This document shows, piece by piece, positions 53,945 to 64,000 of a DNA stretch of 64,000 bases. The translations under genes and the position numbers were made by a program. Within the stretch, counting starts at the first letter, position 1. Each line of letters starts with the position of its first letter. The notes below the pieces were generated by a model. It saw only the letters and a list, made by a program, of their open reading frames with translations, was not told the DNA's origin and did not search any database. Source of the DNA: Ancylobacter mangrovi (GTDB lineage Bacteria > Pseudomonadota > Alphaproteobacteria > Rhizobiales > Xanthobacteraceae); contig NZ_JANTHZ010000008.1 of NCBI RefSeq assembly GCF_024752355.1, positions 62,001 to 126,000 on the forward strand, read 5' to 3'.

Positions 53945-54163
53945 GCCTGCTTGTGGACAAACGTTCTTACGGTGTCGTGATCGGGTGTTAAGCGGCGGGC
54001 ATCCGGGCCCGAGGCCGGTCCGCCGGGCGCATTTGCCGGCCAATCACGGACAAGTCCCTTCCCATGCCGGGCTGTTGTTGGAACAATCCGGGCGGTGCGT
54101 TCGTTCCCGCCAACCGGTCGGCATCGTGCCACCGTCCCGAACGACCGCTCCAGGGGGGATCTC

Positions 54164-55090
54164 ATGATCACGAGCATTAACCGCCGCCGCCTCTTGCTTT
54201 CGCTCAGCGCAGCGGCACTGCTCCCGATGGGCGCGGCCTACGCCGCCGACCCCGTGGTGGTCGGCTCCAAGATCGATACGGAAGGCGCGGTGCTCGGCAA
54301 CATCATCGCGCTGATTCTCGAGCATGCGGACATCCCGGTGACGCGGCGCCTGCAGCTCGGCCCCACCAAGATCGTGCGCTCCGCGCTGCTGGCGGGCGAG
54401 ATCGACGTCTATCCCGAGTACACCGGCAATGCCGGCTTCTTCTTCAACATGGCCGACGACCCGGTGTGGAAGGACGCGAAGAAGGGCTACGAGGAGGCGA
54501 AGAAGCTCGACGCCAAGAACAACCTCGTCTGGCTGACGCCCGCACCCGCCGACAACACCTGGGGCATCGCCGTGCGCGGCGACGTCGCCGAGAAGGAGAA
54601 GCTGGCCACCCTCGACGACTTCGCCCGCTGGGCCAATGACGGCGGCACGGTGAAGCTCGCCGCCTCGGCCGAGTTCGTCGAGAGCGCGGCGGCGCTGCCC
54701 GCCTTCCAGAAGGCTTACGGCTTCAAGCTGGCCGGCCCGCAGCTGCTGGTGCTCTCGGGCGGCGACACCACCGCCACCATCAAGGCCGCGGCGGAAGGCA
54801 CGTCGGACGTCAATTCCGCCATGGTCTACGGCACCGACGGCGCCATCTCCGCGCTCGGCCTGAAGGTGATGCAGGACACCAAGCACGTGCAGCCCGTCTA
54901 CCAGCCCGCGCCGGTGATCCGCAAAGCCACGCTCGACGCCTATCCCAAGATCGCCGGGCTGCTCGCCCCCGCCTTCGAGGGGCTGACGCTCGAGACGCTG
55001 CAGCACCTCAACGCGCAGGTGCAGCTCAACGGCATGGAGGCCCGCTCCGTCGCGCAGGACTATCTGCGCTCGAAGGGGCTGCTCGGGTGA
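54164..55090 (+). CDS. Osmoprotectant-type ABC transporter substrate-binding protein
   Basis: A 308-residue periplasmic protein of the OpuAC/YehZ family. The signal MITSINRRRLLLSLSAAALL (start) has a positively charged n-region and ends near AAYAAD. VVVGSKIDTEGAVLGNIIALI and LLAGEIDVYPEYTGNAGFF are the conserved quaternary-amine-binding elements. It feeds the two permeases and ATPase that follow. Ligand class: glycine betaine, choline or related; not proven. Confidence 0.93.
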   Translation: MITSINRRRLLLSLSAAALLPMGAAYAADPVVVGSKIDTEGAVLGNIIALILEHADIPVTRRLQLGPTKIVRSALLAGEIDVYPEYTGNAGFFFNMADDPVWKDAKKGYEEAKKLDAKNNLVWLTPAPADNTWGIAVRGDVAEKEKLATLDDFARWANDGGTVKLAASAEFVESAAALPAFQKAYGFKLAGPQLLVLSGGDTTATIKAAAEGTSDVNSAMVYGTDGAISALGLKVMQDTKHVQPVYQPAPVIRKATLDAYPKIAGLLAPAFEGLTLETLQHLNAQVQLNGMEARSVAQDYLRSKGLLG

Positions 55091-55102
55091 GAGCGGCGGG
55101 GC

Positions 55103-55120
55103 GGCGGGAGGCCGCCCGCC
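55103..55120 (+). other. GC-rich hairpin between binding protein and permease genes
   Basis: GGCGGG and CCCGCC pair around a 6-base loop, inside a wider GC-rich imperfect inverted repeat (55093-55143). No T-tract follows. Such hairpins often protect the 3' end of the binding-protein mRNA so that it is made in excess over the permease. Confidence 0.45.
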
Positions 55121-55172
55121 GGCGTCCGGCGCCGCCCCCCGCCCCGGTGCGGGCCCGGGCGGCGGCCTGACG

Positions 55173-56366
55173 ATGTCGGCCTTGCGTTCAGCCCTGTCCT
55201 CGCGTTCGGGCCCGCCGGCGCTCGCCCTGCCGGTGCTGCTGGCCGCCTTCGGCCTGGCGGCGGCCCTTCTCGGCGGCTTCGTTGTGATCGCGCCGAACCG
55301 GCTGCTCTCCGGCACGCCGCTCGGCCTGTGGGCGGCGGCCGGTCCGGCCGGCACCGCCGCCGTGCTGGCGCCGCTGACGGCGATGGCCGGCCTCGGCCTC
55401 GCGCGCGACTTCGCCCTGCGCCACATGCTGCTAGGCCTCGCCGCCGGCGCGCTGATGCTGGCCTCGACCGGCATCGCCGGCCATGCCGCCATGGTGCACG
55501 GCGCCGATGCCGGGCCGCTGACCCGCGTCTCGCTCGGCGCCGGCTTCTGGTGCCTGCTGGCGGCGGGCTTCTTCACCCTCGCCGATGCGGTGGAGCGGGC
55601 GCGCACGCTGGCGCAGAAGGCGGTGCCGGTGCTCGCCACGGCGGCCGGGCTTTTCGCGCTGGCGGCGGGCGGTGCATTGTCCGAGCTCTCGCTCGCGCGC
55701 GAATTCTCGGTGCGCCAGCACGCTTATCTGAACGAGCTGTTCCGGCATCTCGAGCTGACCGGGGCGGGTCTCGTCGTCGCGGTGGCGGTCGGCGCGGCGA
55801 TCGGCTTCATGGCCTATCGCCGCCCGCGCCGGGCGGGGGCGGCCTTCGCCGCGCTCGACATCGTACAGACCATCCCCTCCATCGCCCTGTTCGCGCTGCT
55901 GATCGGCCCGCTGACGACGCTGACCGCCCTCGCCCCGGCGCTGCGCGGGCTCGGCATCGGCGGCATCGGCCCGTTCCCGGCGATCGTCGCGCTGGCGCTC
56001 TACGGCCTGCTGCCGGTCGCGCGCGGCGTCCATGCGGGCCTGTCGGGCGTGCCGCGTGCGGCGGTGGACGCGGCGCGCGGCATGGGCATGACCGGGCGAC
56101 AGATCTTCACCAGCACCATGGTTCCGCTCGCGCTTCCCACCTTCTTCCAGACCCTGCGGATCACGCTGGTTCAGCTCATCGGCCTCGCCACGCTGGCGGC
56201 GCTGATCGGCGCAGGCGGGCTCGGCACCTTCATCTTCCAGGGGCTCGGCCAGACCGCGAGCGACCTCGTCCTGCTCGGCGCACTGTCCGCCATCGGGCTC
56301 GCGCTGCTCGCCGACCTCAGCCTGCGCGGCGTGGCGCTGGCGCTGTTCCGGAGGCCGGCGACGTGA
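55173..56366 (+). CDS. Osmoprotectant ABC transporter permease (YehY-like)
   Basis: A 397-residue permease. The first 180 residues form extra helices, as in YehY; the second half is the BPD-type core with TVGRAIGFMA-like membrane helices and the EAA-type loop DAARGMGMTGRQIFTSTMVPLALP. It pairs with the second permease two genes on. Its TGA overlaps the ATPase GTG by 4 bases. Confidence 0.92.
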   Translation: MSALRSALSSRSGPPALALPVLLAAFGLAAALLGGFVVIAPNRLLSGTPLGLWAAAGPAGTAAVLAPLTAMAGLGLARDFALRHMLLGLAAGALMLASTGIAGHAAMVHGADAGPLTRVSLGAGFWCLLAAGFFTLADAVERARTLAQKAVPVLATAAGLFALAAGGALSELSLAREFSVRQHAYLNELFRHLELTGAGLVVAVAVGAAIGFMAYRRPRRAGAAFAALDIVQTIPSIALFALLIGPLTTLTALAPALRGLGIGGIGPFPAIVALALYGLLPVARGVHAGLSGVPRAAVDAARGMGMTGRQIFTSTMVPLALPTFFQTLRITLVQLIGLATLAALIGAGGLGTFIFQGLGQTASDLVLLGALSAIGLALLADLSLRGVALALFRRPAT

Positions 56367-57295
56367 TCCGCTTCGACGCCGTCACCAAGAGCTTCGGCGG
56401 CCGCAAGGCGGTCGACGACGTGTCGTTCGCGGTCGAGCCCGGCACGGTGTGCGCGCTGGTGGGCACGTCGGGTTCGGGCAAGTCCACCCTGCTGCGGATG
56501 GTCAACCGGCTGGAGAACCCCGATTCCGGCCGCATCCTGTTCGACGGCGTCGACATCGCCGGGCTGGCGCCGGTCGAGCTGCGCCGGCGCATCGGCTATG
56601 TCATCCAGTCGATCGGCCTGTTCCCGCACTGGACCGTGGCCCGCAACATCGCCACCGTGCCGCGCCTGCTCGGCTGGGAGCGCGGGCGCGTCGAGGCGCG
56701 GGTGAGCGAGCTGCTGGACCTCGTCGGGCTGGAGCCGGAGATCCACGCCCAGCGCTACCCGGACCAGCTTTCCGGCGGCCAGCAGCAGCGCGTCGGCGTC
56801 GCCCGCGCGCTCGCCGCCGACCCCGAGCTGCTGCTGATGGACGAGCCCTTCGGCGCGGTCGATCCGCTCACCCGGCGCAGCCTGCAGGAGAGCCTCGCGG
56901 CGATCCAGAAGCGCACCGGCACCACCGTGCTGCTCGTCACCCATGACGTCGAGGAGGCGATCCGGCTCGGCGGCACGATTGCCATGCTGGAGCATGGCCG
57001 GCTGGTGCAGGCCGGCGCGCCGGCGGCCGTGCTCGCCCATCCGGCCAGCGAGCAGGTGGCGCGCTTCTTCGGCGGCCCGCTGCTGGGGCTTCACCTGCTG
57101 CAGGTGCTGAATGTCGGCGAGCGTACCGACTTCTCGGCCGCGCCGGCCGCCGATGGCGAACCGATCCCCGCCGGCGCGACTCTGGAGGAAGCGCTGGCGC
57201 GCATGATCGCGGACGGCGTCGCGCATCTGCCGGTGCTGGACGCGGCGAACGGGCGCCGCGGCACGCTTAACCTGACGGACCTCGTCGGACGATGA
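56363..57295 (+). CDS. Osmoprotectant ABC transporter ATP-binding protein (YehX-like)
   Basis: A 310-residue ATPase. Walker A GTSGSGKST, signature LSGGQQQRVGVARALA, Walker B LLLMDEPFGAVDPLTR and H-loop LLVTHDVEEAI are intact. The C-terminal 70 residues form a CBS-like or regulatory extension. The GTG at 56363 gives VIRFDAVTKSFGG, the usual beginning. Overlaps both neighbouring permease genes. Confidence 0.95.
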   Translation: MIRFDAVTKSFGGRKAVDDVSFAVEPGTVCALVGTSGSGKSTLLRMVNRLENPDSGRILFDGVDIAGLAPVELRRRIGYVIQSIGLFPHWTVARNIATVPRLLGWERGRVEARVSELLDLVGLEPEIHAQRYPDQLSGGQQQRVGVARALAADPELLLMDEPFGAVDPLTRRSLQESLAAIQKRTGTTVLLVTHDVEEAIRLGGTIAMLEHGRLVQAGAPAAVLAHPASEQVARFFGGPLLGLHLLQVLNVGERTDFSAAPAADGEPIPAGATLEEALARMIADGVAHLPVLDAANGRRGTLNLTDLVGR

Positions 57296-58050
57296 CCCCC
57301 GGGCGACGGCAGGCCGGCCTCGTACGGCTGTTGGGGCGTCCGGTGCTGTGGGTCGGCGCGCTGTTCCTCGTCCTCACCTTCACCATGGACCGCATCGCGC
57401 CCCATCTCGGCTTCCTGTTTCCGCCCGGCACCCGGCTCGTCTACAGCCGGGCGAGCTTTCCCGAGCTCGTCGCCTCGCACGCGATGCTGACGGGGCTCGC
57501 CAGCCTGGTCGCCATCGTCGTCGGCCTCGCCGCCGGCGTCTTCGCCACGCGGCCGGCGGGGCGGGACTATGCGGCGACGCTGGAGATGCTCACCGCCGTC
57601 GCCCAGACCTTCCCGCCGGTGGCGGTGCTGGCGCTGGCGGTGCCGGCGATGGGCTACGGCGCCGCGCCGACCGTGCTGGCGCTGGTGCTCTACGGCGTGC
57701 TGCCGGTGATGGGTGGCGTCGTCGCGGGCCTGCGGAGCGTGCCGGCGCCGGTGCTGGACGCGGCCGACGGCACCGGCTTCTCGGCGGCGGGCAAGCTGTG
57801 GCGGATCGAGCTGCCGCTCGCGGCGCCCATCATCCTCGCCGGCGTGCGCACCTCGGTCACGATCGGCATTGGCACCGCCACCATCGGCTCGACCGTGGGC
57901 GCCCTCACCCTAGGCTCGCCGATCATCGACGGGCTGTCGGGCAGCAACCCGTCCTATGTGCTGCAGGGGACCGTGCTGGTGGCGCTGTTCGCCGTCACCG
58001 TCGACCTCGCCTTCGGGGAGCTCGAGGCGCTCTACCACCCCCGCCGCTGA
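57292..58050 (+). CDS. Osmoprotectant ABC transporter permease (YehW-like)
   Basis: A 252-residue inner-membrane permease with five or six helices; VLDAADGTGFSAAGKLWRIEL is the ATPase-contact loop, and TSVTIGIGTATIGSTVGA lies in the last helices. Forms the second half of the transmembrane pore with the YehY-like subunit. Starts in an ATGA overlap with the ATPase gene. Confidence 0.93.
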   Translation: MTPGRRQAGLVRLLGRPVLWVGALFLVLTFTMDRIAPHLGFLFPPGTRLVYSRASFPELVASHAMLTGLASLVAIVVGLAAGVFATRPAGRDYAATLEMLTAVAQTFPPVAVLALAVPAMGYGAAPTVLALVLYGVLPVMGGVVAGLRSVPAPVLDAADGTGFSAAGKLWRIELPLAAPIILAGVRTSVTIGIGTATIGSTVGALTLGSPIIDGLSGSNPSYVLQGTVLVALFAVTVDLAFGELEALYHPRR

Positions 58051-58071: not shown

Positions 58072-59451
58072 TCACTCCGCCGGCTCCATGCCCTCCAGCA
58101 GGGTGGGAATGAGCTCGGACACGGTGGGGTGGATCGGCACCGCGCGCTGGAAGAAGGTCCAGGGCAGGTCCGCGTTCATGGCGTCGAGCAGGCCGTGAAT
58201 GGCCTCGTCGCCGCCGGTGCCGAGAATGGCGGCGCCGAGGATGCGCTGCGTCTGCGCGTCCACCACCGCCTTCATGAAGCCCCGAGTCTCGGCCTTCTCC
58301 TGCGCCCGGCCGACCCGGCTCATCGGCCGCTTGCCGATCAGCAGCGGCCGGCCGGTGGCGCGCGCCTGCGCCTCGCTCATGCCGACCCGCCCGAGCGGGG
58401 GATCGGTGTAGAGCGCATAGCCGGGGATGCGCTCGCTCAGCTTCCAGCCCTTCCCGTCCAGCAGGTTGGCGGCGACGATCTCGTAGTCGTTATAGGCGGT
58501 GTGGGTGAAGGCGCCGCGCCCGTTGCAGTCGCCCATGGCGTAGACGCCGGGCACGCTGGTCTGGAGATGGTCGTCGACGGTGATGTAGCCGCGCTCGTCG
58601 GTCTCGATGCCGGCCGCCGCGAGCCCCAGATCGTCGGTGTTCGGCCGCCGGCCGATCGCCAGCAGGACGTCGGAGCCGGGAATCCGCGCCCCGCCGCCCG
58701 ACCCGTCGACATGCACCGCCAGCCCGTCCTCATGGCCGGAGAAGCTGATGCATTCGGCGCCGGTGTGCACCTCGATGCCCTCGGCCTCCAGGATCTCGCG
58801 GATCGCCGCCGAGACGTCCTCGTCCTCGCGGCCGACGAGGCGCGGGCCCTTCTCGACCACGCTCACCCGCGCGCCGAAGCGGCGGTACATCTGCGCGAAT
58901 TCGAGCCCGATATAGGAGCCGCCGACCACCACGAGATGGGCCGGAAGCCGGTCCAGCTCCACCATGGTGCTGTTGGTGAGATAGGACACCTCGTCGAGCC
59001 CGGGCATGTCCGGCACCGCCGCGCGCCCGCCGACATTGACAAAGATGAGCGGTGCGCTCAGCGCCTCGCCGTCGACCGTCACCTCGTGCGGGCCGGTGAA
59101 GCGGGCATGGCCCCGCAGCACGGTGCAGCCCTCCATGCCCTCGAGCCAGCTCTCGATGCCGGCGCGGCTGTCATGGATGATCTTGCCCGCGCGCGCCGCC
59201 ACCGTGTTCATGTCGATGCCCGGCGCGCCCTTCAGCACCACGCCGAAATCCGCCGCCCGCTGGGCCATCCGCGCGGCATAGGCGCTCGCGACCAGCGTCT
59301 TGGTGGGGCGGCAGCCGGTGTTGACGCAGGTGCCGCCGAAATAGTGGCGCTCGATGACGGCGACGCGCTTGCCAGAAGCGGTCAGCCGCCCGGCCAGCGG
59401 CGGGCCGGCCTGCCCGGCGCCGATGACGATCGCATCGAAGGGGCGTGTCAT
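58072..59451 (-). CDS. FAD-dependent pyridine-nucleotide disulfide oxidoreductase (mercuric reductase-like)
   Basis: A 459-residue class I flavoprotein. FAD site AIVIGAGQAGPPLAGRL near residues 7-23; redox pair Cys42/Cys47 in GGTCVNTGCRPTKT; NAD(P) site VVVGGSYIGLEFA near 175; C-terminal interface helix with HPTVSELIPTLLEG. It lacks the N-terminal HMA domain and the C-terminal Cys pair of MerA, so mercury reduction is unlikely; it resembles the uncharacterised MerA-like/SthA-like group. Confidence 0.92.
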   Translation of the reverse strand: MTRPFDAIVIGAGQAGPPLAGRLTASGKRVAVIERHYFGGTCVNTGCRPTKTLVASAYAARMAQRAADFGVVLKGAPGIDMNTVAARAGKIIHDSRAGIESWLEGMEGCTVLRGHARFTGPHEVTVDGEALSAPLIFVNVGGRAAVPDMPGLDEVSYLTNSTMVELDRLPAHLVVVGGSYIGLEFAQMYRRFGARVSVVEKGPRLVGREDEDVSAAIREILEAEGIEVHTGAECISFSGHEDGLAVHVDGSGGGARIPGSDVLLAIGRRPNTDDLGLAAAGIETDERGYITVDDHLQTSVPGVYAMGDCNGRGAFTHTAYNDYEIVAANLLDGKGWKLSERIPGYALYTDPPLGRVGMSEAQARATGRPLLIGKRPMSRVGRAQEKAETRGFMKAVVDAQTQRILGAAILGTGGDEAIHGLLDAMNADLPWTFFQRAVPIHPTVSELIPTLLEGMEPAE

Positions 59452-59581
59452 CGCATTCTCCCTGCACGGCGGATCGGAGGACGAACCACGGAGCATGGCG
59501 CGCTTCGCGCCATGTGGGCAAGCCGCCGAACCGAGGCGCACCGTACGCGCGCTCCGGTTTCTCCGCCGCGGGGCTAACCGC

Positions 59582-60733
59582 TCAGTGCGGCGCGACGTTC
59601 CCCACGATCTCGTCCGTGTGCTCGCCGAGCAGCGGCGCCGGGCGTATGGGGAGTTCGCCCGAGCCGAGGAAATGCACCGGCTGCGGCACCACGGGGATCG
59701 CGCCGGCCACCGGGTGCAGCACGGTGCGCACCAGCCCGCGCGCCTTGGCGTGGGCGCTGGCGACCACCTGATCGATCGTCAGGATCGGCGAGGCCGGAAC
59801 GCGCGCCGCCTCCAGCGCCGCCACCGCCTCGGCGACGCTGTGCTGGCGCGTCCAGCCCTCGAGAACCGCCTTCAGCGCCGCCTCGTTGCCCTTGCGGGCC
59901 TGGTCGGTGGCGAAGCGCGGATCGACTGCCAGCTCCGGCCGGCCGATGGCGGCGGCGAGGTCGGCGAACAGCGTGTCGTTGGCGACCGCGATGATGAGAT
60001 GCCCATCCGCCGCCTCGAAACTGTCGAGCGGCGCGCTGATCGGGTGCGTGTTGCCGATCCGCCCGGGCACCTCGCCGGTGAACAGATATTGCGACAGCGC
60101 GGTCATCATGATCGAGAAGATGGAATCGAGCATGGCGATGTCGAGATGCTGGCCGCGCCCATCGCGCTCGCGCCCGTGCAGGGCGGCGAGGATGGCCCAG
60201 GTCGCCTGCAGCCCGGCGATCAGGTCGCCCACCGATTCCCCGACCCGGTTCGGGCCCGAGCCCGCCGGGCCGTTCACGCTCATGATGCCGCTCATCGCCT
60301 GGGCGATGATGTCGTAGGCCGGGCGATGCGAGAGCGGCCCCTCCTGGCCGAAGCCGGAGATGCTGGCATAGACCAGCTTCGGGTTGATGGCGGCGAGGCT
60401 CGCATAGTCGATGCCGAGGCGCGCGGTGACGCCGGGGCGGAAATTCTCGACCACGATGTCCGCCCCGGCGGCGAGCTCGTGCACGGCGCGCCGGCCCTCC
60501 TCGCTCTTGAGGTCGAGCACCACCGAGCGCTTGCCGCGGTTGATCATCAGGAAATAGGTGCTCTCCCCGCCCGCCCGCGGCGCGAAATGACGCGCGTCGT
60601 CGCCGTCCGGGCTCTCGATCTTGATGACGTCGGCGCCGGCATCGGCGAGCAGGGCGGTGCAGAAGGGGCCGGCGAGCATGCGCGAGAAATCGAGCACGCG
60701 CACGCCCGCGAGCGGCGGCGGCAGGGGAGCCAT
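59582..60733 (-). CDS. CaiB/BaiF family CoA-transferase
   Basis: A 383-residue family III CoA-transferase. The N-terminal GVRVLDFSRMLAGPFCTALLAD and GADVIKIESPDGDD are standard; the catalytic Asp is in GRGQHLDIAML near residue 165. It would activate an organic acid by CoA exchange. It lies 7 bases after the MmgE/PrpD gene, so it is the third gene of the urocanase-like operon and may supply a CoA ester of that pathway's product. Confidence 0.94.
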   Translation of the reverse strand: MAPLPPPLAGVRVLDFSRMLAGPFCTALLADAGADVIKIESPDGDDARHFAPRAGGESTYFLMINRGKRSVVLDLKSEEGRRAVHELAAGADIVVENFRPGVTARLGIDYASLAAINPKLVYASISGFGQEGPLSHRPAYDIIAQAMSGIMSVNGPAGSGPNRVGESVGDLIAGLQATWAILAALHGRERDGRGQHLDIAMLDSIFSIMMTALSQYLFTGEVPGRIGNTHPISAPLDSFEAADGHLIIAVANDTLFADLAAAIGRPELAVDPRFATDQARKGNEAALKAVLEGWTRQHSVAEAVAALEAARVPASPILTIDQVVASAHAKARGLVRTVLHPVAGAIPVVPQPVHFLGSGELPIRPAPLLGEHTDEIVGNVAPH

Positions 60734-60740
60734 GGTCAGG

Positions 60741-62138
60741 TCAGGCCTCGTGGTTCAGGTCGTCGAACAGATCGCGCAGGTTCGCCCGCGTCTCGATCGC
60801 GTCGAGGCGGGCGAGCAGCCGCTCCACTGCGCCGGGCGGCAGCAGGAGGCCGGCGCAGGCGCGGAACTTGGCGGCAAGCGCCTCGGGCGGCAGCGGATCG
60901 CCGGCCGCGCCGCGCGGGATGGCGCGGAAACCCTCGAAGGCGCGCCCGTCGGCGAGTTCCACCCGCACCCGCGCCCCTTCGGGCGCGTGCCTGCGGGTCT
61001 CCTCGTCCCAGGAGGCGCCGGTGTGCATCTCCACGCGCTCCATCAGGGCGGCGACGGCGGGGTCGCGGATCACCCTTTCGTCGAGGTCGGACAGCGTCAC
61101 ATCGCCAAGCACCAGCGTGGCGGCAAGCGCGAAGGGCATGGAGAACTGCGCCTGCTGGGGCGTCGACGGCCGGTCGTGGATGAGGTTGGCGACGATCACC
61201 GGCGGCACGTCGCAGACGATGCGCGCCACGTCCCCCGCGCCGAAGCCGTGCGCGCGCGCCAGCTCGGCCACCACGTCGACGCTGGTGTGCGCGGACAGGC
61301 AGACCGGGATGCGCTTGACGTCGATGCCGGGATCGAGGAGGCGCCAGCGCGTGCCGGGCGCCTCGAGTGCGCTCTCGTCGAACACGCCGTCGTTGAACAG
61401 TGCCGCGAAGCCGCGCGGATGGGTAGCGACGTCGGGCGGGCCGCTCGCTCCCTCGGCGGCGAGCAGGGCGGCGACGACGCCCGCCTCGGCGGCGCGGCCG
61501 GCGAGCAGCGGCTTGGCATCGGTGCCGAAGGCGGCCTTGGCCCCGCCCGCGCCGGCGAGCGCGATGCCGATGGCCGCGTCCATCGCCTGCGCGTCGAGGC
61601 CGAGAAGCCGGCCGGCGGCGACCGCAGCACCGACCGGGCCGAGCACGGCGGTGGTCCACCAGCCCTTCTCGTAGAGGCTCATCGTGGCGGCGGCGCCGAG
61701 CGCATATTCCGCCTCCGACCCGGCGATGATGGCGTCGACCAGCGCGCCGCCTGACGCACCGACCTGCTGCGCGACGGCGAGCGCCGCGGGCACGATGATC
61801 GCCGAGCCGTGCACCACGCCGGCATAGCAATTGTCGTCGAAGTCGAGCGCATGGGCGGCGGTGCCGTTGGCCATGGCGGCGCCGGGCGGGGCGAGGCGAA
61901 GCCCGGTGCCGGGCACGGCCGCGGCACCCGGGGCGCTGGCGAAGCCGGCGACGCGCTGCGCCTTGCGCGCGACCGGCGCCGTGGCGCCGGCAAGGGCGAC
62001 GCCGAGCGTGTCCACCAGGCAGTTGCGCGCCACCGCCCGCACCTCGGGCGGCACCTCGCCCGGCGTGAAGCCGGCGCACCACTGCGCCAGCCGCCCGATG
62101 GCGGTCGGGGCCCCGATGCCGGCCGAAGCCCCGCTCAC
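60741..62138 (-). CDS. MmgE/PrpD family protein
   Basis: A 465-residue member of the 2-methylcitrate dehydratase/cis-aconitate decarboxylase superfamily. [40 protein letters not shown] and [24 protein letters not shown] (last in part) mark it. True PrpD is longer and shows propionate-operon context, absent here. The start is the GTG at 62138, overlapping the hydratase stop by 4 bases. Probably a dehydratase, decarboxylase or isomerase for an unsaturated acid. Confidence 0.92.
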
Positions 62139-63805
62139 GGGGCGGACGAGGCCGATCGGGTCAGCCCTTCGCGCTCGACGGTGGCGATGGCTTCCTCGTA
62201 GCCGGCGTCCGCATGGCGGAACACGGCGACGGAGGAATCGTTCGCCAGCACGCGGCGCAGGCGCCGGGCCGCGTCCTCGCTGCCGTCCGCCACCACCGCG
62301 AAGCCGGCATGCTGCGAATAGCCGATGCCGACGCCGCCGCCATTGTGCAGCGACACCCAGGTCGCGCCGCTGGCGCAGGCGGTGAGCGCGTTCAGCATCG
62401 GCCAGTCGGCGACCGCGTCGGAGCCGTCCAGCATGCCCTCGCTTTCGCGGTTCGGGCTGGCGACCGAGCCGGAGCTGATGTGGTCGCGGGTGACGATGAT
62501 GGGCGCGGCGACCTCGCCGGAGGCCACCATCTCGTTGAGCGCGAGGCCCGCGGCGACGCGGTCCTGCAGCCCCATCCAGTAGCTGCGCGAGGGCAGGCCC
62601 TGGAACTGGATGCGCTTCTCCGCCATGTCGATCCACCGGGCGAAGCTCGGATCGGCGACGATGCCCTTCAGCTTGCGGCTCGAATGCAGGATGTCCTGCT
62701 GCTCGCCCGACAGCGCGATCCAGCGGAACTGGGTGCGGCCCCGGCAGAATTGCGGGCGCACATAGGCGCTGATGAAGCCGGGGAAGTCGAACGCCTCCTC
62801 GACGCCGGCATCGCGCGCCATCTGGCGGATGTTGTTGCCGTAGTCGAACACGGGAATGCCGCGCGCGCGGAACTCGAGCATCGCCCGCACCTGCCGCGCC
62901 ATGGTGTGTTTGGCGGCGGCGATGGTGCCCTCGGCGTCGGTCTCGCGCCGGCGCTCCCACTCGGCGATGCTCCAGCCGGCAGGGATGTAGCCGAACAGCG
63001 GGTCGTGGGCGGCGGTCTGGTCGGTGACGAGGTCGGGCAGCGTGCCACGCGCGAGGATCTCCTCATAGACCTCGGCTGCGTTGCCGATGAGCCCGATGGA
63101 GAGCGCCTCGCCGGTGCGCCGCGCTTCTGCGATCATCGCCAGCGCCTCGTCGAGGCTGCCGGCCTTGCGGTCGAGATAGCCGCCCTGGATGCGCCGCTCA
63201 ATGCGCTCCTCGCGCATCTCGATGGCGAGCACCGAGCAGCCGGCCATGACGCCGGCGAGCGGCTGCGCCCCGCCCATGCCGCCGAGCCCGGCGGTGAGCA
63301 GCCAGCGGCCGGAAAGATCGCCGCCATAATGCTGGCGGCCGGCCTCGACGAAGGTCTCGAAGGTGCCGCCGATGATGCCCTGGCTGCCGATATAGGTCCA
63401 GGAGCCGGCCGTCATCTGGCCGTACATCATCAGGCCCTTGCGCTCGAGCTCGTCGAACACTTCCTGCGTCGCCCAGCGGCTGACGAGGTTGGAATTGGCG
63501 ATCAGCACGCGCGGGGCGTCGGCATGGGTGCGGATGACGCCGACCGGCTTGCCGGACTGGATCAGCAGCGTCTCGTCCTGGTCCATCGCCTTCAGCGTGG
63601 AGACGATGCGGTCGAAGCATTCCCAGTTGCGCGCCGCCCGCCCGCGTCCACCATAGACCACCAGATCCTCGGGGCGTTCGGCGACCTCGGGATCGAGGTT
63701 GTTCATCAGCATGCGCAGCGGGCCTTCGGTCTGCCAGCTGCGGGCGTTGAGGACGGTGCCGCGCGGGGCGCGGACGATCCGGCTGTTCTTGGTGGCGGCG
63801 GTCAC
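62135..63805 (-). CDS. Urocanase (HutU)-like hydratase with altered active-site motifs
   Basis: A 556-residue NAD-dependent hydratase of the urocanase family: [50 protein letters not shown] and [20 protein letters not shown] are conserved. The urocanase signature FQGLPxRICW reads [10 protein letters not shown], so Tyr409 replaces the active-site Cys. Further on, RDHLDSGS has become RDHISSGS (Ser444) and HHGGG has become HNGGG (Asn488). This points to a substrate other than urocanate, for instance thiourocanate. GTG start at 63805 behind GAGGAG. It leads an operon with PrpD-like and CoA-transferase genes; hutH and hutI are absent. Confidence 0.85.
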
Positions 63806-63924: not shown

Positions 63925-64000
63925 TCACGTCGCCCCGCGGCCGCGGAAGTAGTCCTTCGCGACGGTGACGAAGGCTTCGGCCGCGCGCGTCATCGGCGCG
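63925..64000 (-). CDS. C-terminal end of a gene, perhaps a LysR-type regulator (partial)
   Basis: The last 25 codons of a minus-strand frame cut by the window edge: PMTRAAEAFVTVAKDYFRG then a short Arg/Gly tail and stop. The helical ending with AAxAF is typical for LysR-type regulators, but the fragment is too short for certainty. It lies 119 bases upstream of the urocanase-like gene on the same strand. Confidence 0.45.
   Translation of the reverse strand, partial: APMTRAAEAFVTVAKDYFRGRGAT

Follow-up and report, generated by a model that had tools for sequence, protein, structure and literature searches.

A diverged urocanase paralogue in a conserved gene island of Ancylobacter mangrovi, a candidate hydratase of a modified urocanate

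The window analysed here is a stretch of 64,000 nucleotides of Ancylobacter mangrovi (assembly GCF_024752355.1, contig NZ_JANTHZ010000008.1, positions 62,001 to 126,000 of the forward strand). Close to its end the minus strand carries an intact open reading frame for a urocanase paralogue, here called UROC', where the preliminary description of the window had placed it; the gene is located on contig C21 of the 4.9-Mb genome. Its neighbours form an island (Table 1) with genes for an MmgE/PrpD-family protein, a CaiB-type coenzyme A (CoA) transferase, an acyl-CoA dehydrogenase, ureohydrolases and a Dpp-type importer. UROC' differs from canonical urocanase (HutU) at several active-site positions, belongs to a clade of its own and co-exists with HutU.

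UROC' is a real homologue of urocanase, and chance is excluded. Three Pfam urocanase domains are present; the nearest homologue, P0001, attributed to Ancylobacter pratisalsi, is equally long and 92% identical, and the identity to the HutU of the same genome was 63% (tblastn). With the HutU equivalog model TIGR01228 (cut-off 375 bits) UROC' scored 844 bits and the genome's own HutU 977 bits, a pass that is unspecific because the diverged relatives tested pass too. The AlphaFold2 model of UROC' had a mean predicted local distance difference test score (pLDDT) of 87.5, and its 17 best PDB matches were all urocanase-family chains, with template modelling (TM) scores to the query of 0.82 to 0.94, the top match being 7jfz (TM 0.94, 61% identity). 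The model was used for the fold only, and no claim is made on site geometry, since its least certain stretches (residues 45-57, 129-134 and 491-494) are loops that hold positions in contact with nicotinamide adenine dinucleotide (NAD). Regarding six relatives, the ratio of nonsynonymous to synonymous substitution rates (dN/dS) was 0.09-0.26, with dS near or above 1, i.e. near saturation, for two of them; these values disfavour a decaying gene, and the gene is under purifying selection.

Active-site residues were compared in an alignment of 122 proteins, comprising UROC' as query, the genome's own HutU and the best 120 of 8000 scored homologues. The rows were divided into group A (23 rows with Tyr409), group B (40 other rows with Gln359) and group C (the remaining 59, canonical), position 444 not being used in the grouping; UROC' was 62-69% identical to the canonical rows. 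As the preliminary description had reported, and as can be read directly from the sequence, the family signature FQGLPxRICW is altered to [10 protein letters not shown], with Tyr409 in place of Cys, HLDSGS is altered to HISSGS, with Ser444 in place of Asp, and HHGGGVG to HNGGGVG; the altered stretch [16 protein letters not shown] and HNGGGVG agree with what had been described. Position 444 separates the groups completely: every one of the 63 A and B rows has Ser there, and every one of the 59 C rows has Asp. Tyr409 is found in 23 of the 63 Ser444 rows, group B retaining the Cys together with the same Ser444. Four further replacements, Gly146 (Q to G), Phe149 (Y to F), Gln359 (P to Q; GPFRW to TQFRW) and Ser408 (I to S), are fixed in the 23 rows of group A and occur in 0 of the 59 canonical rows, and Arg54 is present in 23/23 rows of group A, 35/40 of group B and 6/59 of group C. 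HNGGG was rejected as a diagnostic feature of the clade: among the 24 Tyr rows (group A plus one row from a metagenome-assembled genome, MAG) three read HN and 21 HH, and HN also occurs in two of the 59 canonical rows.

The NAD-contact positions, which we take to be those of the HAMAP/UniProt numbering, are largely kept across the rows of the clade and the canonical rows, position 409 being the clear exception and positions 53, 201, 265, 273 and 274 varying in some rows. The earlier statement that the NAD scaffold and all other motifs are retained is borne out for most of the NAD-contact positions but is wrong for the motifs, as the replacements at positions 146, 149, 359 and 408 show. For the exchange of Asp for Ser no precedent was seen among characterised members of the family; three Bacillota rows (L024, L032 and L017), which have His or a gap in place of the aligned Asp, count against uniqueness, and these keep the Cys and stand far from the UROC' clade in the tree. 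The loss of the signature Cys together with the conserved Asp would fit a protein that has given up hydratase activity and serves as another NAD-dependent enzyme or as a binding or regulatory protein. This is considered improbable in view of the largely kept NAD-contact residues, the low dN/dS, the overlap of the gene with a catabolic gene, the retention of the Cys in group B next to the same Ser444, and the existence of solved hydratases that lack the Cys. On the reading favoured below, UROC' retains the NAD+ fold and very probably still hydrates an imidazole-type acrylate with the help of NAD+.

A quick IQ-TREE tree of 56 rows, with branch support from the Shimodaira-Hasegawa-like approximate likelihood ratio test (SH-aLRT) only, took in 11 of the 24 Tyr rows and 14 of the 40 group B rows. 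Groups A and B together form one group nested inside canonical HutU (SH-aLRT 99), and group A forms one group inside group B (SH-aLRT 98); the long outgroup branches fall outside this clade. UROC' is thus placed among genuine HutU proteins, a position that the preliminary description had named as speaking against its proposal, yet on a derived, separately conserved branch. The order of changes suggested by the tree is Asp to Ser first, then the residue before the Cys, and Cys to Tyr last.

To trace the distribution of the clade, genomes were scanned with a DNA pattern that encodes the signature but requires a residue other than Ile before Cys or Tyr. It gave 53 stretches in the set of named genomes, nine of which were members of the clade as judged by RDHISSGS, the rest being other urocanases or having no urocanase match. 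The nine genomes are those of Roseovarius confluentis, a Pseudorhodoplanes MAG (group B), a Betaproteobacterial MAG (G003), Ancylobacter moscoviensis, Bosea sp. 117, Acidisoma silvae, Skermanella stibiiresistens, an Alphaproteobacterial MAG and Acuticoccus mangrovi; together with a genome of the same genus (G021) and the window's own they make up the 11 clade genomes examined. Among 61 genomes of the window's genus and its kin, UROC' was present at at least 90% identity in four. The pattern occurred in 1/385 genomes of the class sample and 2/397 of the order sample, the window's own included, so that the clade is rare. In the titles and opening parts of abstracts that were searched, no paper on the UROC' clade or on the urocanase active site was found, which is weak evidence of absence, as most subscription journals lie outside that literature.

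As to a second, canonical hutU, for which the preliminary description had proposed a search, one other urocanase was found in the genome (C18:219317), with Cys and Asp at the two positions. It lies in a hut operon in which HutG, HutH and HutI accompany hutU and HutF is divergent, all scoring above their family cut-offs. A urocanase with RDHLD(S/A)GS is present in all nine named clade genomes, and the second urocanase of G021 is 96% identical to the HutU of the window genome; each of the 11 clade genomes thus contains either a HutU with both residues or a protein closely matching such a HutU. The Betaproteobacterial MAG has three urocanase loci (contigs C85 and C16): the paralogue, a HutU (RDHLDAGS) that shares its contig at a distance of about 11 kb, and another HutU, whose match is split in two. 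Compared with the solved HutU proteins (TIGR01228; Pseudomonas putida 1uwk/1uwl and Legionella 7jfz), UROC' is 61% identical to both 7jfz and 1uwk, with TM scores of 0.94 and 0.88, and keeps most NAD-contact positions; it differs in Tyr409, Ser444, Ser408, Gln359 and Gly146, and lies outside the hut operon while HutU co-exists. Because a canonical hutU is present as well, the active site is consistently different and the gene stands in a non-hut set, a substrate other than urocanate is likely.

This lends good support to the first part of the earlier proposal, that the protein is probably active on a different imidazole acrylate; thiourocanate, the example given, is supported neither by model scores nor by residues or context, and was rejected as the leading reading on these three grounds. 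Hydration of thiourocanate or S-methyl thiourocanate from ergothioneine has in its favour that both solved specialised hydratases, those for thiourocanate (Paenibacillus 7ned) and S-methylthiourocanate (Variovorax 8q9u/8q9v), belong to the same family and likewise lack the Cys, so that its loss is compatible with hydration. The precedent is one of Gly, however: 7ned and 8q9u read ARIGW and keep the Asp, whereas UROC' has Tyr and Ser, and the identity of the UROC' model is 47% to 7ned and 50% to 8q9u/8q9v, as against 61% to most solved HutU chains in the match list. With the thiourocanate hydratase model NF058530 (cut-off 930) UROC' scored 667 bits and the genome's own HutU 682 bits, and with the S-methyl thiourocanate hydratase model NF058531 (cut-off 880) the scores were 675 and 705 bits, i.e. 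at the level of ordinary HutU and far under both cut-offs. In a sample of 120 genomes from the order of G003, 23 matched NF058531 at the threshold used, with scores of 660-722, and none contained a protein above the cut-off. The divergent operon of Acidisoma silvae does hold an ammonia-lyase family protein that lacks the triad forming the 4-methylideneimidazole-5-one (MIO) group and keeps QEDH, and ergothionase is described as lacking MIO (PMC13405746). With this lyase as the only query, the window genome yielded a match to canonical HutH only, and the 10 clade genomes other than that of Acidisoma, the window's included, yielded no match above 42% identity, the MIO triad having been checked there in the HutH of the window genome alone. 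In Rhizobium, Agrobacterium and Sodalis the same type of lyase stands with CaiB and beta-oxidation genes, with no urocanase in the stretch shown. Taken together, ergothioneine-derived substrates are regarded as highly improbable.

Another urocanase homologue in a specialised catabolic cluster is that of a Paraburkholderia graminis plasmid (L146), which is 44% identical to UROC' and differs from it in keeping Cys and Asp (RICF, DNLD). This divergent urocanase is encoded (L146 4153-11746) with a HutH-like lyase, two amidohydrolases and a Zn-dependent hydrolase, and scores below both thiourocanate model cut-offs.

The genes of the island are given in Table 1. The CaiB-type protein resembles dicarboxylate and oxalate CoA-transferases and lies well below every cut-off. 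By score, the two ureohydrolases AGM1 and AGM2 belong to the agmatinase/guanidino-acid hydrolase group and not to the formimidoylglutamase group; regarding the agmatinase cut-off of 174, AGM1 passes with 187 and AGM2 fails with 156. Convergent with the island, a glycine betaine-type ATP-binding cassette (ABC) transporter with an OpuAC substrate-binding protein occupies positions 54095-58050 of the plus strand, relatives of which stand beside the island in G021 too.

Table 1. Genes of the UROC' island and its surroundings (window positions unless L003 is named).
Feature	Position	Strand or orientation	Remarks
UROC', urocanase paralogue	62135..63805	minus	556 aa, GTG start; Tyr409, Ser444, Ser408, Gln359, Gly146, Phe149, Arg54
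MmgE/PrpD-family protein	60741..62138	minus	Probable GTG start, read from the sequence, overlaps the UROC' stop (GTGA); IDS-epimerase is the best-scoring solved relative
CaiB/BaiF-type (family III) CoA-transferase	59582..60733	minus	383 aa; starts 7 bases past the MmgE stop
FAD pyridine nucleotide-disulphide oxidoreductase	58072..59541	minus	Start position and membership of the island both uncertain; in G021, too, a relative comes after the island genes
LysR-type regulator, 3' end	63925..64000	minus	Continues past the window (L003 1926-2834)
Acyl-CoA dehydrogenase	L003 2898-4073	divergent from LysR	Outside the window
RpiR	L003 4070-5197	divergent from LysR	Outside the window
Ureohydrolase AGM1	L003 5194-6156	divergent from LysR	Outside the window
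Dpp-type ABC transporter (importer)	L003 6230-11819	divergent from LysR	Outside the window
Ureohydrolase AGM2	L003 11868-12827	divergent from LysR	Outside the window

The island is conserved around the paralogue. Ten other paralogue loci (12.6-20 kb) were compared with 11 canonical hutU loci (12-20 kb) taken from those ten genomes plus that of the window. MmgE was found in 9/10 paralogue loci (one cut by a contig end) and 1/11 canonical loci (partial), the acyl-CoA dehydrogenase in 8/10 and 0/11, CaiB in 7/10 and 2/11 (one partial), and LysR at at least 60% identity in 7/10 and 0/11. An SBP_bac_5 protein was present in 7/10 paralogue loci, with a weak match (26%) in one of the 11 canonical loci, and a ureohydrolase of at least 60% identity in 6/10, with AGM1 and DppB/DppC in one of the 11. 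Nine of the ten paralogue loci gave no match to HutG, HutH, HutI or HutF, the remaining locus having a HutH relative (41%); a HutH paralogue was rejected as a general partner, the island copy being confined to Acidisoma. In Skermanella, CaiB and part of MmgE adjoin hutU-hutG-hutI at a contig end, a second contig end carrying UROC' with another part of MmgE. The Pseudorhodoplanes MAG has hutU-hutG-hutI-hutF grouped with a piece of CaiB and with RpiR, AGM1 and DppB-DppC. An orthologue of the dehydrogenase occurs in all 11 clade genomes (64-88% identity in the ten others), as a single copy at the threshold used and in nine on the contig of UROC', and an AGM2 orthologue in nine of the 11. Among the 61 relatives the dehydrogenase and UROC' were found in the identical four genomes, which is not independent functional evidence, since all four are among the 11 (G012 and G031 match the places of G005 and G004) and the genes of the island are linked.

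Relatives of the CoA-transferase and the dehydrogenase were also inspected on plasmids (5 of 42 matching records for CaiB and 6 of 10 for the dehydrogenase). The dehydrogenase relative stands directly behind a CaiB-type CoA-transferase in all six inspected records. On a Thioclava nitratireducens plasmid (L173, NZ_CP019438.1, 2276-9793) the genes run hutI-hutH-hutG-CaiB-dehydrogenase-hutU, HutC and HutF being divergent and the hutU match falling into two frames. On a plasmid of Mesorhizobium sp. AR02 the CaiB relative is found with a 65%-identical acyl-CoA dehydrogenase and an amino acid transporter, hutC lying four genes off across the transporter. These pairs resemble that of the island (CoA-transferases 53-54% and dehydrogenases 62-65% identical) and differ from it in standing beside hut genes including HutU (Thioclava) or near hutC (Mesorhizobium), in having no UROC' in the stretches shown, and in that their function is putative. 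To judge from gene context, the Thioclava pair provides candidate genes for the oxidation of imidazolepropionate, and the CaiB-dehydrogenase pair in general may convert an imidazolepropionate-type acid to the acrylate. We know of no genes for the oxidation of imidazolepropionate to urocanate, and the titles and abstract openings searched, with most subscription journals outside them, contained no CaiB-dehydrogenase route from imidazolepropionate, again weak evidence of absence.

Another assignment is that UROC' is an isozyme hydrating ordinary urocanate, which the pair would make from imidazolepropionate under separate (LysR) control. The score of UROC' above the HutU equivalog cut-off and the relatives of the pair within the Thioclava hut operon and near hutC in Mesorhizobium are in line with it, but the whole clade has Ser444 and part of it lacks the Cys, a canonical-type HutU is found in all 11 genomes, and such a route needs neither ureohydrolases nor MmgE; the isozyme is judged unlikely.

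Other relatives of the partners stand in different sets. Those of CaiB on Sodalis, Rhizobium and Agrobacterium plasmids (L164, L165 and L166) occur with MIO-less ammonia-lyase-like proteins, 3-hydroxyacyl-CoA dehydrogenase and enoyl-CoA hydratase, and one on a Paracoccus plasmid with a HutH-annotated lyase and a MaoC dehydratase. The lyases of L164, L165 and L166 and that of Acidisoma (L110:13176-14717) lack the MIO-forming Ala-Ser-Gly and keep QEDH, being ergothionase-like by that feature; in the Acidisoma island the MIO-less lyase stands with an acyl-CoA dehydrogenase, a 3-hydroxyacyl-CoA dehydrogenase and an enoyl-CoA hydratase, and it is another conceivable source of an acrylate. On Mesorhizobium and Gemmobacter plasmids (L168 and L171) a Rieske dioxygenase, a 2Fe-2S protein, an aminotransferase (hisC-annotated in Gemmobacter) and an FAD oxidoreductase lie beside the CoA-transferase/dehydrogenase pair, gene sets that are suggestive of an N-methylated amino acid. 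A gene run of Chelatococcus combines an AGM2 relative with a urea carboxylase-associated protein, as would suit the release of urea.

The reading we favour, and to which we give an even chance of being correct, is that UROC' is a neofunctionalised urocanase that hydrates a ring-modified urocanate made by the CaiB-dehydrogenase pair. From the residues and gene context we infer the catalysis, the order of steps and the class of substrate as follows. The CaiB-type CoA-transferase would load CoA onto an imidazolepropionate-type acid, and the acyl-CoA dehydrogenase would oxidise the propionyl-type thioester to the acrylate thioester, from which CoA would be handed to the next substrate molecule, setting the acrylate free. 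UROC' with NAD+ would then convert the ring-modified acrylate to an imidazolone-propionate. Once the ring is opened, urea or an amide would be split off by the agmatinase-type ureohydrolases, leaving glutamate or a relative. The ureohydrolase partners hint at a guanidine-bearing ring.

Several points weigh against this scheme. No imidazolonepropionase-like gene was recognised in the paralogue loci, so that the ring would have to be opened by HutI, MmgE or a ureohydrolase. The exchange of Asp for Ser could mean altered chemistry or no hydration. CaiB at at least 66% identity is present in only eight of the 11 clade genomes (G003 has a 54% copy in the island, G021 only a 57% copy off the island and G002 none above the threshold), and hut genes accompany only two of the six inspected CaiB-dehydrogenase records, the other four having LysR regulators or a Rieske/HisC-like set. 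For AGM2, relatives are found in places that lack UROC', some of them next to RidA and ArgE-like genes in a stretch that has no urocanase, and the ureohydrolases may therefore serve a different compound or another branch of the island. Finally, activity, substrate and product are predicted from sequence and context for every member of the clade. Such probability as remains beyond the favoured reading and the three alternatives discussed above goes to something not considered.

In a more specific form, which we hold to be quite unlikely, the island would encode an undescribed pathway for a guanidine-bearing imidazole acid, e.g. of the 2-aminohistidine- or 2-aminoimidazole-propionate type: Dpp-type import, conversion to the acrylate by CaiB and the dehydrogenase, hydration by UROC' of 2-amino-urocanate to a creatinine-like ring, and release of urea by the agmatinase-type enzymes to leave glutamate. 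If this were true, the CaiB-dehydrogenase pair in the hut operon would represent the genes for the conversion of imidazolepropionate to urocanate. Imidazolepropionate is a metabolite linked to human cardiometabolic disease, and the pair is a concrete gene candidate for its bacterial oxidation. Many proteins of the clade are labelled urocanate hydratase in the sources, which may misassign their pathway. The chemistry of urocanase is very unusual in that NAD+ acts as an electrophilic catalyst, and a clade without the conserved Asp and partly without the signature Cys, in which the fold is kept, constitutes a natural experiment on the roles of those residues.

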